Below, one piece after another: positions 43,495 through 64,000 of a DNA stretch of 64,000 nucleotides. Source of the stretch: Prochlorococcus marinus str. MIT 1214 (lineage in GTDB: Bacteria > Cyanobacteriota > Cyanobacteriia > PCC-6307 > Cyanobiaceae); assembly GCF_027359355.1 (NCBI RefSeq), contig NZ_CP114777.1, positions 310,001 to 374,000 of the forward strand, given 5' to 3'. Positions within the stretch are counted from its first letter, which is position 1, and each line of letters starts with the position of its first letter. The translations under genes and the position numbers were made by a program. A model generated the notes under the pieces. The model saw only the letters and a program-made list of their open reading frames with translations, did no database searches and was not told the origin of the DNA.

Positions 43495-43513
43495 ATTCTA
43501 TTAATAATAGAAT
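43495..43513 (+). promoter_or_regulatory. Hairpin overlapping the start codon of the compact RNase II gene
   Basis: ATTCTATT (43495-43502) and AATAGAAT (43506-43513) form a perfect 8-bp stem with the loop AAT. The last two bases are the first two of the ATG at 43512. Such a structure could mask translation initiation or mark an RNA-processing site between rpsR and the RNase gene. The stem is AT-only except for two GC pairs. Confidence 0.45.
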
Positions 43514-58638: not shown

Positions 58639-60528
58639 TTGCAAACAGATAACAATCAAATTACAAGATGGGTATTACCAAAGCCTGTAACCCAAAGGGA
58701 AATAGAAAATTGCTCTATAAATTACACCTTACAGAAAGTTTTAATTAGAAGGGGTATTGATTTAAATAAAGAATTAGATGATTACCTAACACCATCAGAT
58801 CTGCCAAATCCTGAAGATCATTTTGGTGATTTAAATATAGCAACTGAAAGAATTATACAAGCATGTACTAAAAACGAACAGATTGCGATATGCGGAGATT
58901 ATGATGCAGATGGTATTACTAGCACAGTACTTTTATTAGAATTATTAACTAAACTTGGAGCTAAAGTTAAGCCTTATATACCATCAAGGCAAGAGGAAGG
59001 ATATGGATTGAATTTAAACATGATAAATGAAATTAATAAAAAAGAGATTAAACTAATTATTACTGTAGATAATGGGATCTCGGCGTTCGACGCGATTAAA
59101 AAATCTAGAGAACTTGGTATTGATTTGATTATAACTGATCATCACAAAATACCAGATATAGAATTAGATATATTTTCACTAATTCATCCAGAGAATAGCC
59201 CTACCAATTCTCCTTATAGATACTTGGCTGGAGTTGGAATTGCATATCTTTTAGCAAACAATATTTGTAATAAAATTAATTATGATATAAATAATACATC
59301 AGCTAATGTATTATTTTGTATTGGTACTGTAGCAGACATGGCTCCTCTTAAAGGAGCTAATAGAAAATGGCTTAAAGAATTTTTACCCAAAATAAATACA
59401 ACAAGCAATAAAGGAATTAAATCTATTATTAATACTCTAGCAATTGATAAAGTTACCATCACTTCAGAGGATATCGCCTATAAGATTGCACCATTAATAA
59501 ACGCAGTTGGAAGAATAGGTGACCCAAAACTTGTAATCGATCTTTTGACAAATCAGTCTTCAGACTCTTTATTAGAACTCACAAAAGAATGTTTCTCAAT
59601 TAACAAACAAAGAAAAGAGATTACAACGTTACTACAACAAGAAGCCATGGAAATGGCACTAAGTCAATTTGAAATTAATAGAAAATTTCTTGTAATTACA
59701 AATAAAAAATGGCATCCAGGAATCATTGGTATCGTTGCTGCAAGAATAGTTGACAAATTTAATTTACCTACAGCAATACTAGCTATGGCTAAAGATGGTA
59801 AATTTAGAGGTTCAATAAGATCTAATAAACTTTTAAAAGTAAATCTGGCATTAGATGAATGCAGTGATCTTCTAATTTCTTATGGAGGACATTCCGCAGC
59901 TGCAGGTTTTTCAATTCAAGCTGAAAATATTCCTATGCTTGAGGAAAGGCTTAATAACATAGCCAAGAGACAATTTAAAAATAAAAATTTAAATGTGTCA
60001 ATAAAGCCTGATGCATACATTTGTTTTTCTGAGATTAATCTAGAAATTTATAAACAATTATGTTTGATTGGCCCTTTTGGAATTATGAATCCTGCGCCAA
60101 TCTTTTGGACTAGGAAATGTAAAATTTTAGATATTTACAATCTTAGAGGTGGCCATATAAAAATGACTTTAGATGATGGAACCTCGATCATAGAAGCAAT
60201 TAAATGGAACCAAACTACAGACCTAAACAAAAATGATTTAATAGACATATCTTTTCTCATTGAATTAAATAGATGGAAAAATAGAAATAACCTACAATTA
60301 AATATTATAGACTTCAAGAAACATTCAAATATTGTTGAATTGCAAATACATAAAAGAGTTTATAGGTGTCATTCTACTAACAATAAGGAAATAATAATAA
60401 CAAACTCAAATGGACAAACTATTTGCTCAGATTTATCAAAAAATTCTGAGAATCTTGATAAACAAAAATTAGCATTCGCAAAAAAAATTTTTACCTTTGC
60501 TGAAATTGCTCTTGGTCAAACGGCTTAG
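58639..60528 (+). CDS. recJ: Single-stranded-DNA-specific exonuclease RecJ
   Basis: 629 residues, read from a TTG at 58639 (MQTDNNQITRWVLPKPV) because no ATG is well placed. The DHH phosphoesterase motifs are CGDYDADGITST (residues 85-96), VDNGISAF and ITDHHKIPD (Asp167, His168, His169). The DHHA1 domain carries GGHSAAAGFSI. An OB-like C-terminal part follows. It degrades single-stranded DNA 5' to 3' in recombination and mismatch repair. It is divergent from the HAD gene and converges with psb30, 4 bases apart. Confidence 0.95.
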   Translation: MQTDNNQITRWVLPKPVTQREIENCSINYTLQKVLIRRGIDLNKELDDYLTPSDLPNPEDHFGDLNIATERIIQACTKNEQIAICGDYDADGITSTVLLLELLTKLGAKVKPYIPSRQEEGYGLNLNMINEINKKEIKLIITVDNGISAFDAIKKSRELGIDLIITDHHKIPDIELDIFSLIHPENSPTNSPYRYLAGVGIAYLLANNICNKINYDINNTSANVLFCIGTVADMAPLKGANRKWLKEFLPKINTTSNKGIKSIINTLAIDKVTITSEDIAYKIAPLINAVGRIGDPKLVIDLLTNQSSDSLLELTKECFSINKQRKEITTLLQQEAMEMALSQFEINRKFLVITNKKWHPGIIGIVAARIVDKFNLPTAILAMAKDGKFRGSIRSNKLLKVNLALDECSDLLISYGGHSAAAGFSIQAENIPMLEERLNNIAKRQFKNKNLNVSIKPDAYICFSEINLEIYKQLCLIGPFGIMNPAPIFWTRKCKILDIYNLRGGHIKMTLDDGTSIIEAIKWNQTTDLNKNDLIDISFLIELNRWKNRNNLQLNIIDFKKHSNIVELQIHKRVYRCHSTNNKEIIITNSNGQTICSDLSKNSENLDKQKLAFAKKIFTFAEIALGQTA

Positions 60529-60532
60529 CCCT

Positions 60533-60616
60533 TTAAACGCCTCTTCTATAGAAGATCAAAGCAATGATTGCAGGTCCTGCAAGAAAGACTGCTACAAGAG
60601 GCAATAGGTTTCCCAT
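60533..60616 (-). CDS. psb30: Photosystem II protein Psb30 (Ycf12)
   Basis: 27 residues, one membrane helix: MGNLLPLVAVFLAGPAIIAL followed by IFYRRGV. The AGPxIIxLxxxRRG ending is the conserved C-terminus of Psb30/Ycf12, a small peripheral subunit near cytochrome b559 in photosystem II. The N-terminus is shorter than in beta-cyanobacteria. The size and the fit into the gap after recJ support a real gene. A longer frame on the opposite strand here is a shadow. Confidence 0.75.
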   Translation of the reverse strand: MGNLLPLVAVFLAGPAIIALIFYRRGV

Positions 60617-60900
60617 GTCGTTTTAAATATTTTATTTATCCTACTAAACAAACTGACAATCCTTCAAATTATTTAAAGAACTTTGACTATCATCTTTACC
60701 AAAATGGATATTTTTTAGCAAAACACCACTTCTTCATCATAAAAAGAAGAAAAAAAAGTGATCGAATTTTAATGAGAAATCTCTTTTATATGGAAATAAT
60801 CTTGCACAAATAGTGATTTTATTGATAAATTGAACTTTTAGATGTTATATATAGTGGATGTATAGGAATAAAAAAAGTTAACATCACTTAATTGGAAGTA

Positions 60901-61248
60901 ATGGGTCAGCCTAAATCAAATTCAAAAATAGGAAGTAGTGGTGCAGAGGATTCTGATACATTTTTAAGCATATTAATTACATCTTTTAGCACAATTTTTT
61001 TGGCAGAGTTGGGAGACAAGACTCAACTTGCGACACTAATGCTTTCTGCGCAGTCTGGTCGGCCATTAATAATTTTCATTGGAGCAGCACTTGCTCTTAT
61101 CTCAACTAGTCTTCTTGGCGTTCTAATAGGTAGATGGATAGCGAATAACCTTCCAAGGAAAAATTTTACAGTGGTTTCAGGAATAATTATGTTAAGTTTA
61201 GGTATATACCTTGTTACAGACTGTTTGATTGACTTTTTTCAAAATTAA
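60901..61248 (+). CDS. Gdt1/TMEM165-family half protein A (probable Mn2+/cation exporter)
   Basis: 115 residues from ATG 60901 (a TTG three codons earlier is possible). After a polar leader of about 20 residues there are three membrane helices; the first contains the family motif FLAELGDKTQLATL. Full-length Gdt1 proteins have two such triple-helix halves in one chain; here each half is its own gene, 14 bases apart. In Synechocystis the fused homologue exports manganese from the cytosol. A heterodimer with the next gene is inferred. Confidence 0.85.
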   Translation: MGQPKSNSKIGSSGAEDSDTFLSILITSFSTIFLAELGDKTQLATLMLSAQSGRPLIIFIGAALALISTSLLGVLIGRWIANNLPRKNFTVVSGIIMLSLGIYLVTDCLIDFFQN

Positions 61249-61262
61249 AATCTGAAATATTT

Positions 61263-61556
61263 ATGCTTCTAACACTTCTTTTTACAACTTTTGTCACTGT
61301 GTTTTTAGCTGAAATGGGCGACAAAACACAATTAACAACTATATCTTTGAGTAGTACAACTAATAATCCCTTAGCAGTATTTATTGGGTCGTCTGTTGCT
61401 CTTATATCAGCTACTCTTTTAGGGGCCTTGGCTGGCGGCTCAATTGCAAATCTTATCCCCGCCTATCTACTAAAACTGCTCTCTGGAATAGTATTCTTAA
61501 TTATAGGAATTAAACTTCTGGGACAAAGCAGAGAATATTATGATAGTGATGCATAG
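61263..61556 (+). CDS. Gdt1/TMEM165-family half protein B
   Basis: 97 residues, three membrane helices. The first helix holds VFLAEMGDKTQLTTISLSS, the second Gdt1 signature. SSVALISATLLGALAGGSIA and the terminal helix with GIVFLIIGIKLLG follow. It pairs with the preceding half gene, and together they restore the ExGDK motif pair that forms the ion site. Function in manganese or calcium export at thylakoid or plasma membrane is inferred from fused relatives. Confidence 0.87.
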   Translation: MLLTLLFTTFVTVFLAEMGDKTQLTTISLSSTTNNPLAVFIGSSVALISATLLGALAGGSIANLIPAYLLKLLSGIVFLIIGIKLLGQSREYYDSDA

Positions 61557-61624
61557 TAAACAAACTTTATTTTTAAGAATATAGCCTTTTTTATTCAAAG
61601 ACTTTATCAAATAAAAATTAAAAT

Positions 61625-63925
61625 GTGCCTATTACTATGACTTCTGTTTTAAAAATTCTTGAAAGTCTTGAGAGAGAAGATGGTTTGGAAGTTTCCAAAC
61701 TTGAGAAATCATTAAAACTCACTAAAAAGCTTGATAGAGATAATTTGCAGATAGCGATTAAAGCTCTTAGTAAGCTAGGTATAATTCAAAATACTAGTGA
61801 CGAGAAACTGATTATTAACGATAATAATGATTTTATTCAAGGTAGAGTCCGTTGTAGCAGTAAAGGGTACTGCTTTGTAGTTAGAGAAGATCAAGGCGAA
61901 GATATTTATATTAGAGAAACCAATCTGAATAATGCCTGGCATGGTGATTTAGTAATAGTTGTAATAACAAGACAGGGTATTAAAAGACGAGCCCCTGAAG
62001 GATCTATTCAATGCGTATTAGAAAGATACAATGATAAATTACTTTCAAAGGTAGAATCTGATAAAACAACTGGTGAATTAAGGGCCTACCCCTTGGATGA
62101 CAGGATTCCAGCAATTATTGATCTAGAAAGTGATAACGAATTTTGTAAAAAGCCAATAAATAAAGATCTTATATATGAAATAAAAATAAGTAGATATCCT
62201 ATTGCTCAATTTAAAGCAAAAGGCTCAATAATTAGAGAGTTTTCAATAAACTCTGGAATTGAAGGTGATATTGATTTATTACTCTCAAAGAATAATATTT
62301 CCACAAATTATGAGGAACCAAAAGTATCTCCCAAAAAAGTTGCATTAAAAGGAAGAGAAGATTTGACGTCTCAACCTGCATTATTGTTTAGAAGTTGGGA
62401 ATCTGCAAAGTCTCCATCACTACCTGCATTATTTGCAGAACCTTATGAAGGTGGTAATAGAATATGGGTTCACTGTCCAACTGTTGCAGAAAGAATAAAT
62501 TTAGGGAGCAAATTAGACAAATTCCTCAAAGAGAAAGGTGAAGCCATTTGCCTTGGAAATGATTGGTTTGAATTCCTTAATGACTCGCTTAAATCAGCAT
62601 CACAATTTATTCTAAACGAAAAATGTGAGGCAATCTCATTAAGGATAGATATTAATAGCGAAGGGAATATTGCTGATTGGGAATTTATTCTCAGTATCAT
62701 TAAACCCGTAAATATTATTACACCAAAACACCTTAACGCTATTAATAATAGAAAACCAAATTCCAAATCTGTTCCTATTGCACTTAAAACTGTTAAGGAA
62801 AATCTTGAAGTAATTTACACCATCATATATTCTTCAAAATTAATTAATACCAGCAATAAAACAACTATTAAATTGGATGAAAACATACCTAAATTTGAGA
62901 GATTAAGTGAATTGCAGAAAACATATCCAGGTAGAGATTTCCATGGTTGGTCAAAGACTTTTGATAGCAATGACCCTCAATCAATAGTTGATTTATACAT
63001 TAGACTTTCTAATAATATTCTTGCTAATCATTTAATTGGATATAAATTACCATTTATATATAAAGAACATGAAGAAATTGAATCATCATCTATTAATGAG
63101 TTAACCAAATCTGCTCTTACTTTAGATAATAAAGTAGCTGTAAATATTGATGGAAGTTTAACCGCACATGAGTTGATAAAAGCATTTGAATCAAGTACTG
63201 AAAAGAAAATCCTTCATAAATTAGTGAAACATATAATTCCCGGAATACATTTAAAACTTTATAAGTATAATCCGCAAGCAGAAAAAGAAGATATGAATTA
63301 TGCCATTTCAACTACTAAAATTGAATCACCGTGGTGCTGTCCATCCTTAAATTACTGGAATATTTATAATCAGTTTATAATATGCTTACTCCTATCCGAA
63401 GGTAAAAATAAATCTACAAGTCGAAGTAAGGAATTAATTGAATTAGGTAAAATGAATAGCTGGCTTGAAGTTAATTGGGAGATATTTTCACAAAAGGTAA
63501 AAGATAATATATATAATAGTTCAAATTTACGGCTAATTCAGAATTTAAATGATATCAGAAAGAAGTCAAAATCATTTAGAAATAATATTATTGCAATAGC
63601 ACAGGGTAGAGAAGCTCAGAAGATTATCGGTGAAGAAGTAACAGCAATCATCACAGGAGTTCAAAGTTATGGTTTTTTTGCTGAGATAGAAGATATAACT
63701 GCTGAAGGTTTAGTTCATGTAAGTACTCTTGGTGATGACTGGTATGAATATAGATCAAGACAAAACCTATTAGTAGGAAGGAAAAGTAAAAAGACGTATC
63801 AACTTGCCCAAAAAGTAAATGTTAGGGTATTAAAAGTTGACATCCTAAAAAATCAAATTGACTTAGAGCTTGTTAAGGAAAATCCTGCAGATTTGATAGG
63901 TAATAATGATAATGAATCTGAATGA
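61625..63925 (+). CDS. Long RNB-family protein with degenerate catalytic site (RNase R-like)
   Basis: 766 residues from a GTG (or 762 from ATG 61637). The N-terminus holds a winged-helix-like segment and cold-shock-type RNA-binding sequence (IQGRVRCSSKGYCFVV). RNB fold landmarks are seen (KGREDL at 242-247, IWVHCPTVAERINLGSKLD at 280-298), but between them the aspartate cluster normally reading DxxxARDFDDA is replaced (LLFRSWESAKSPSLPALFAE). The HATSPIRRY segment is also gone (SPWCCPSLNYWN, 568-579). The C-terminal S1 domain (about 668-750) is good. It is probably an RNA-binding protein rather than an exonuclease. Confidence 0.8.
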   Translation: MPITMTSVLKILESLEREDGLEVSKLEKSLKLTKKLDRDNLQIAIKALSKLGIIQNTSDEKLIINDNNDFIQGRVRCSSKGYCFVVREDQGEDIYIRETNLNNAWHGDLVIVVITRQGIKRRAPEGSIQCVLERYNDKLLSKVESDKTTGELRAYPLDDRIPAIIDLESDNEFCKKPINKDLIYEIKISRYPIAQFKAKGSIIREFSINSGIEGDIDLLLSKNNISTNYEEPKVSPKKVALKGREDLTSQPALLFRSWESAKSPSLPALFAEPYEGGNRIWVHCPTVAERINLGSKLDKFLKEKGEAICLGNDWFEFLNDSLKSASQFILNEKCEAISLRIDINSEGNIADWEFILSIIKPVNIITPKHLNAINNRKPNSKSVPIALKTVKENLEVIYTIIYSSKLINTSNKTTIKLDENIPKFERLSELQKTYPGRDFHGWSKTFDSNDPQSIVDLYIRLSNNILANHLIGYKLPFIYKEHEEIESSSINELTKSALTLDNKVAVNIDGSLTAHELIKAFESSTEKKILHKLVKHIIPGIHLKLYKYNPQAEKEDMNYAISTTKIESPWCCPSLNYWNIYNQFIICLLLSEGKNKSTSRSKELIELGKMNSWLEVNWEIFSQKVKDNIYNSSNLRLIQNLNDIRKKSKSFRNNIIAIAQGREAQKIIGEEVTAIITGVQSYGFFAEIEDITAEGLVHVSTLGDDWYEYRSRQNLLVGRKSKKTYQLAQKVNVRVLKVDILKNQIDLELVKENPADLIGNNDNESE

Positions 63926-63935
63926 TTAACAATCA

Positions 63936-64000
63936 ATGAATAGTATTGTTATTGCTATCACAGGTGCTTCAGCCATGCAAATAGCTGAGAGATCAATACA
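63936..64000 (+). CDS. Start of a UbiX-like flavin prenyltransferase gene (cut by the window edge)
   Basis: Only 21 codons are visible, starting MNSIVIAITGASAMQIAERS. The IAITGASA segment resembles the N-terminal FMN-binding loop of UbiX, which makes prenylated FMN for UbiD decarboxylases. It begins 10 bases after the RNB-family gene. Too little is visible for certainty. Confidence 0.5.
   Translation, partial: MNSIVIAITGASAMQIAERSI

Follow-up and report, generated by a model that had tools for sequence, protein, structure and literature searches.

Zam, an RNB protein of cyanobacteria with a degenerate catalytic site and redox regulation, was described by Thomas et al. 2022 as present in every cyanobacterial genome surveyed and as carrying an RNB site that is extremely degenerate or poorly conserved (PMC9145284). 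Loss of zam gives acetazolamide resistance or altered pigmentation, with phenotypes in both PCC 6803 and PCC 7002; in PCC 7002, the two cysteines of the first cold-shock domain (CSD1; C73 and C79) are redox-active and needed in vivo, and deletion and Cys-to-Ser mutants have phenotypes in common (PMC9145284). The purified PCC 7002 protein showed neither nuclease activity nor RNA binding (with the caveat that it is prone to aggregation), Zam is reported to conserve the loop L12 residues of CSD1 that contact RNA, and the authors favour redox control of a contact with RNA and/or RNase E (PMC9145284). They also identify Alr1240, an RNase II-type partner of RNase E in Anabaena, as Zam (PMC9145284), whereas the available part of a review (PMC10989914) describes Alr1240 as an active exonuclease as well as an RNase E partner, and reports that an RNase II-type protein in Anabaena binds RNase E and enhances its cleavage. 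Either one of these two papers is wrong or the Anabaena Zam is active. In addition, according to the available part of PMC7125299, a CRISPRi screen lists zam among the genes that, when repressed, impair growth on L-lactate. Our literature search found no paper joining Prochlorococcus, Zam and ribonuclease, and Prochlorococcus is unnamed in the main text of PMC9145284.

The closest solved relatives of Zam by sequence and fold are the RNase R proteins of Bacillus subtilis (8cdu) and Escherichia coli (5xgu), in which the domain order is the same; RNase R, however, is an active enzyme with four acids and an Arg motif, none of which is found in the Zam studied here. Further afield, the fungal proteins Ssd1 and Sts5 are RNase II-family pseudonucleases that have kept the CSD1–CSD2–RNB–S1 arrangement, lost catalysis and serve as RNA-binding regulators (PMC8934651, available part). 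Unlike Zam, they are eukaryotic and Dis3L2-related, with a funnel blocked by insertions in CSD1 and S1, and the same part of that paper describes no cysteine switch in either. Ssd1, whose cold-shock domains are believed to be its RNA-binding surface, is the best functional analogue of Zam, as far as that portion of the paper goes.

Identity, layout and distribution of the Prochlorococcus Zam

The genome of Prochlorococcus marinus str. MIT 1214 encodes two RNB proteins, both within the window (that is, the whole 64,000-nucleotide stretch that we analysed): one in the open reading frame 61625–63925 and one of 428 residues at 43512 (Table 1). On sequence grounds, we take the first gene to be zam. 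Its product scores 246–306 bits against 30 Zams from outside the Cyanobiaceae (L066–L095) and at most 24 bits against any listed Rnb. As in the published Zams (sll1910 of PCC 6803 and A1543 of PCC 7002), an RNase R layout, a degenerate site and a CSD1 cysteine pair are accompanied by an active Rnb elsewhere in the genome; this likeness is drawn from the published descriptions, and the sequence scores are those against L066–L095. We regard the protein as an ordinary Prochlorococcus member of the Zam family with modest lineage novelty, and as almost certainly both a dead nuclease and a Zam ortholog.

Table 1. Features of the zam and rnb loci in the window (residues of Zam counted from the ATG at 61637)
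Feature	Position	Strand	Details
Compact Rnb, 428 aa	43512..44798	+	Catalytic RNB residues 28–315, S1-like tail, N-terminal module missing
zam, catalytically dead RNase R-family protein, 762 aa	61637..63925	+	Start ATG 61637
CSD1 (Pfam OB_RNB, residues 69–125)	61841..62011	+	E 1.9e-17
C73 + C79, CSD1 cysteine pair	61853..61873	+	Positions as in PCC 7002 Zam (PMC9145284)
Probable CSD2 region (residues ~126–225)	62012..62311	+	Continuous RNase R alignment; predicted strands, moderate-to-low-confidence model
RNB domain, degenerate (residues 240–587)	62354..63397	+	E 1.3e-33
Former Asp cluster, residues 252–263, now R-x-W-x5-P-x-L-P	62390..62425	+	Catalytic columns of alignment
Former HATSPIRRY segment, residues 565–579, now PWCCPSLNYWNIYNQ	63329..63373	+	Catalytic columns of alignment
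S1 domain (residues 664–744)	63626..63868	+	E 6.3e-10

The reading frame is open and intact, and a GTG start at 61625 would give 766 residues. Given that the open reading frame begins M-T-(S/T/N)-V in 19 of 21 same-genus loci, which matches the ATG at 61637 here, the 762-residue protein is likelier. The first-pass annotation had described an RNase R-like protein with a retained S1 domain, and both points hold: Pfam recognizes OB_RNB, RNB and S1 in the window protein and in all of the 20 same-genus Zams scanned (19 of the 21 same-genus loci and the window protein itself), and the alignment with RNase R is continuous. The Pfam match for CSD2 covers residues 87–134, overlapping CSD1, and residues ~126–225 have no separate Pfam domain match; the continuous alignment and the predicted strands nonetheless make a second cold-shock domain probable there. 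The protein scores 116 bits against Pfam RNB (versus 223 for the 428-residue protein) and 191.2 bits against the NCBIfam RNase R model TIGR02063, below the curated cut-off of 597.85 bits. In an AlphaFold model made with 20 same-genus sequences, the N-terminal cold-shock part was better than the RNB core, which was poor; as mean pLDDT was 55, and below 50 across most of the ex-catalytic region, we claim no superposition. A Foldseek search with this low-confidence model had RNase R as its top match (8cdu, E 5e-30), with Ssd1 (7am1) at rank 31.

The neighbourhood of zam is common to the window (58639–64000) and the one relative compared (L034, 1975–7907), comprising in order what we take to be a RecJ-like protein, a pair of small UPF0016-type membrane proteins, zam and a UbiX-like flavoprotein. 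In neither do these neighbours show an evident connection with RNA turnover.

Among Cyanobiaceae genomes that are at least 85% complete, 322 of 334 have a Zam match, of which 316 are strong and six are weak (E 1.9e-4 to 8.8e-7, the level of Rnb cross-matching); the 12 genomes that lack one are all multi-contig assemblies. Within the same genus, with no limit on completeness, 31 of 41 genomes have a match (one of them weak). In one same-genus genome (L026 = L046), a single in-frame stop divides zam into open reading frames of 388 and 378 residues; the assembly is fragmented, and an error is possible. A class-wide search matched all 213 genomes, but the Zam query matches Rnb too, and G643 (4.2 Mb in one contig, same class) and G608 (1,150 contigs) gave an Rnb-type match alone. 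At least one cyanobacterial genome assembled in one contig (G643) thus seems to lack Zam.

The former active site and its replacement

Catalytic columns were read from an alignment of 173 Zam rows (>600 residues) and 42 Rnb rows. Counts for Zam refer to 168 rows (83 from Cyanobiaceae and 85 from outside the family), leaving aside L170–L173 (cut copies of the L162–L165 genes), L247 (a copy of L226), open reading frames of 600 residues or fewer, and L033–L053 (same genus, already in the sample). The 42 Rnb rows represent 40 genes, with L254 duplicating L240 and L255 duplicating L237, and L253 is a fragment.

In the window protein, the metal positions are occupied by R252, P260, L262 and P263 (that is, by none of the four acids of RNase R and RNase II), and the segment corresponding to HATSPIRRY reads PWCCPSLNYWN, which contains no Arg and has L571 and N572 at the RR positions. 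The replacement of the Asp cluster and of the HATSPIRRY segment, as first noticed from the DNA, is thus confirmed, and it extends across the family: in Cyanobiaceae Zams, the four metal positions carry no acid in 57 of 83 rows and a single one in the other 26, and Arg occurs at either RR position in none of the 83. By comparison, Rnb has D, D/E, D and D in 42 of 42 rows (40 genes) and RR in 41, the remaining row being the fragment. That the protein is catalytically dead and has kept its RNA-binding domains is therefore supported here, although this headline was already known for the family from the published work on Zam (PMC9145284).

Cyanobiaceae Zams differ in this respect from those sampled elsewhere, which often keep RRY and some of the acids. 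Among the 85 non-Cyanobiaceae rows, the metal positions hold zero, one, two, three and four acids in 8, 25, 38, 14 and 0, respectively, and the second Arg of RR is retained in 80; these rows are biased towards better preserved sites, as they were picked as best scorers or matches (L066–L095 are the 30 best RNB scorers and L176–L205 the 30 best matches to one of these). Three acids are kept by L068, L069, L070, L072, L180, L184, L189, L190, L191, L200, L201, L202, L204 and L205. Residual activity may persist in these 14 loci, a possibility that touches the conflict over Alr1240, and the view that all Zams are dead should accordingly be held less firmly outside the Cyanobiaceae. Such partly preserved sites could also be taken to mean that Zam is still a nuclease whose active site has been rebuilt elsewhere in the chain, particularly as eight RNB columns (242, 285, 302, 425, 482, 488, 497 and 505) carry an acid (D or E) in at least 90% of the 83 Cyanobiaceae rows. 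However, E285 is the sole single acid fixed at 98% or more, the eight columns are scattered along the chain, five of them (242, 425, 482, 488 and 505) are commonly acidic in other Zams, and both RR arginines are missing from all 83 of these rows; we consider a rebuilt nuclease very improbable.

A new observation from this sample is that, in the Cyanobiaceae, what took the place of the catalytic residues appears to have been re-fixed rather than eroded. P260, L262, N578 and Q579 are invariant in all 83 Cyanobiaceae rows, followed by P263 and P565 (80 of 83 each), W254 (78) and W566 (77), and the P260 and W254 columns rank among the most variable in Zams from outside the family (percentiles computed with the five copies L170–L173 and L247 still included). 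In the Cyanobiaceae, columns conserved at 98% or more number 20 of 64 in CSD1, 25 of 86 in S1 and 14 of 353 in RNB; of the last, R240, H279 and H465 alone are also fixed in other Zams. Four near-invariant columns fall within the two ex-catalytic segments against 1.07 expected (p 0.016), an enrichment that is weak because the segments were picked after inspection of the data. Two further candidates were rejected: W277 as a new Zam feature (fixed in 83 of 83 Cyanobiaceae Zam rows, yet Trp is likewise found in 39 of the 42 Rnb rows) and C567–C568 as a second redox switch or core feature (54 of 83 rows carry both, but none of the nine g25 rows does).

Purifying selection acts on Zam in each of the domains tested. 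Over 12 pairs, dN/dS is 0.08–0.20 for the gene, 0.09–0.21 for RNB, 0–0.14 for CSD1 and 0–0.10 for S1, with CSD1 and S1 below RNB in all of the pairs. These values argue against zam being a functionless, decaying relic of RNase R, as the vanished active site, the in-frame stop in L026 = L046, and the 12 of 334 Cyanobiaceae genomes without a match (with six more matching weakly) might otherwise suggest. CSD1 and S1 are highly conserved, strong matches persist in genomes of 1.6–1.7 Mb, none of those 12 genomes is a single contig, and loss of the gene has phenotypes in PCC 6803 and PCC 7002 (PMC9145284), leaving decay scarcely credible.

The compact Rnb and its relation to Zam

The 428-residue protein was initially described as the reverse case, with active-site motifs kept and RNA-binding domains reduced, and this description is borne out. 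D39, E45, D47 and D48 are in place, as are R299 and R300 of SPIRRY; the protein aligns (by profile) to residues ~249–675 of full-length Rnb, indicating that an N-terminal module of ~250 residues is the part lost, and the S1-like tail remains. Pfam scans covered 26 of the 29 compact proteins and 26 of the 32 full-length ones. RNB was found in all of the 26 compact Rnbs, and an RNA-binding family (including the N-terminal HTH_RNase_II, wH_RNase_II and CSD_RNase_II) in none of them; HTH_RNase_II, wH_RNase_II and CSD_RNase_II were recognized in 17, 10 and 3 of the full-length proteins, respectively. The compact form thus resembles cyanobacterial Rnb (sll1290) in its catalytic residues and differs from full-length members in lacking the N-terminal HTH, winged-helix or CSD-like region that is often recognizable there. 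For Synechocystis Rnb too, an unusual CSD1 is reported, together with a shortened S1 (PMC3293843, available part). The best PDB match of the compact protein is the Deinococcus RNase II-family protein 2r7d, and a single-sequence structure model (mean pLDDT 32.6) held no usable information. Among the titles listed in our literature search, none concerned a shortened Prochlorococcus Rnb, which is weak evidence of absence.

Rnb was found in 91 of 91 Cyanobiaceae genomes that are at least 95% complete. Its open frame is 398–454 residues long in 24 (g1, g3, g4, g5, g7, g10, g18, g25, g26 and g27), 436–502 in six (all g33; 416–443 from the first start) and 675–737 in 59, and is split over contigs in two. 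A further survey of 14 genomes found short forms in g2, g3, g4, g8 and g25, full-length forms in g12 and g19, no match in three genomes and a weak match in one.

To order these changes, we mapped the state of Rnb (set per genus from sampled members) onto a tree of Zam comprising 58 rows from the Cyanobiaceae and 7 from outgroups, inferred with a quick method under LG+G4 and with a composition warning for 52 of the 65 rows. Short Rnb requires two changes, one at the base of a 28-row clade to which the window protein belongs, the other in g33; the 28-row clade adjoins g19 and g24, both of which have full-length Rnb. All 83 sampled Cyanobiaceae Zams are dead, including those of lineages with full-length Rnb. 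On this tree, the Rnb N terminus would thus have been lost twice, each time with Zam already dead, and, given that Zam is dead alongside full and short Rnb alike, the reciprocal pattern arose in two separate steps.

This order bears on the division of labour proposed in the first-pass annotation, a functional pair in which binding of RNA, or scaffolding, would fall to Zam and catalysis to the compact Rnb. The domains of the two proteins are indeed complementary (OB_RNB and S1 in 20 of 20 same-genus Zams, no RNA-binding family in 26 of 26 compact Rnbs), and g33, which shortened Rnb independently, retains Zam. In addition, scaled to the protein as a whole, these parts of Zam are slightly better conserved with short than with full Rnb (CSD1, 1.59 versus 1.54; S1, 1.50 versus 1.40; N terminus, 1.05 versus 0.83), although these differences, which compare ratios from 12 short-Rnb and 18 full-Rnb genera without a significance test, are small. 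At most, CSD1 and S1 became slightly more constrained after Rnb was shortened, which neither requires cooperation nor argues against it. The proposal is not upheld, however: catalysis was gone from Zam before Rnb was shortened; zam and rnb lie ~17 kb apart in the window, not in one operon, and about 190–215 kb apart in G337 and G114; and zam has phenotypes in PCC 7002, outside the short-Rnb lineages (its Rnb being assumed full length from relatives). Cooperation in trans is possible, and a dedicated pairing of this kind is distinctly unlikely. A more elaborate version, a little more doubtful, is that of a split exoribonuclease made of a nuclease core and a redox-gated pseudo-nuclease, in which Rnb would have shed its RNA-binding N terminus in the Prochlorococcus lineage and, independently, in g33 because Zam, already a pseudo-enzyme, delivers RNA or RNase E to it in trans, and in which the old Zam pocket may be a new fixed binding surface (W254, P260, L262 and N578–Q579).

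Cold-shock cysteines and a proposed adaptor role

Across the 168 Zam rows, C73 is present in 161 and C79 in 165; within the Cyanobiaceae, C79 is invariant (83 of 83) and C73 nearly so (78 of 83). Serine replaces C73, with C79 kept, in all four g33 Zams (L166, L167, L168 and L169) and in L148 (g28), so that the C73–C79 disulfide is not universal. Genus g33 is also the one that shortened its Rnb independently.

Taking these observations together, we suggest that zam encodes a cyanobacterial pseudo-RNase R that acts as a redox-switched adaptor with a rebuilt pocket, and give this reading as a whole a probability of about 0.6. Its mechanistic part, an adaptor for RNA or the degradosome, is carried over from other cyanobacteria, and we hold it with even confidence. 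In this scheme, Zam would not cut RNA; CSD1 and S1 would contact RNA and/or RNase E; and the C73–C79 pair, as dithiol or disulfide, would switch this contact according to the photosynthetic redox state and would thereby alter mRNA turnover. The Cyanobiaceae pocket, reshaped around residues that are now fixed (Pro, Trp and Asn-Gln), would probably be a closed or protein-binding surface. By analogy, RNA or RNase E would be the target in Prochlorococcus as well; to our knowledge, neither RNA binding nor contact with RNase E has been reported for a picocyanobacterial Zam.

Zam could instead act through protein contacts alone (for example, as a regulator of RNase E), with CSD1 and S1 as protein-docking OB folds. 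The purified PCC 7002 protein did not bind RNA, and the Anabaena protein that the same authors equate with Zam binds RNase E and enhances its cleavage (PMC9145284; PMC10989914, available part). However, the PCC 7002 preparation was prone to aggregation, the RNA-contact residues of loop L12 are conserved according to PMC9145284, and R72, K76 and F80 are near-invariant in our sample; we consider protein contacts alone unlikely, and continue to favour the redox-switched adaptor. With regard to its role, Prochlorococcus largely lacks phycobilisomes, and the reported phycocyanin phenotype is therefore unlikely to represent the common function of Zam.

Zam has been proposed to connect the photosynthetic redox state with RNA turnover in cyanobacteria (PMC9145284). 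Retention of zam in genomes of 1.6–1.9 Mb in the Prochlorococcus lineage, which largely lacks phycobilisomes, makes it unlikely that its conserved job is phycobilisome-specific. The re-fixed ex-catalytic segments point to residues for mutation, and the Rnb N terminus, lost twice independently, provides a natural experiment on whether Zam and Rnb cooperate.
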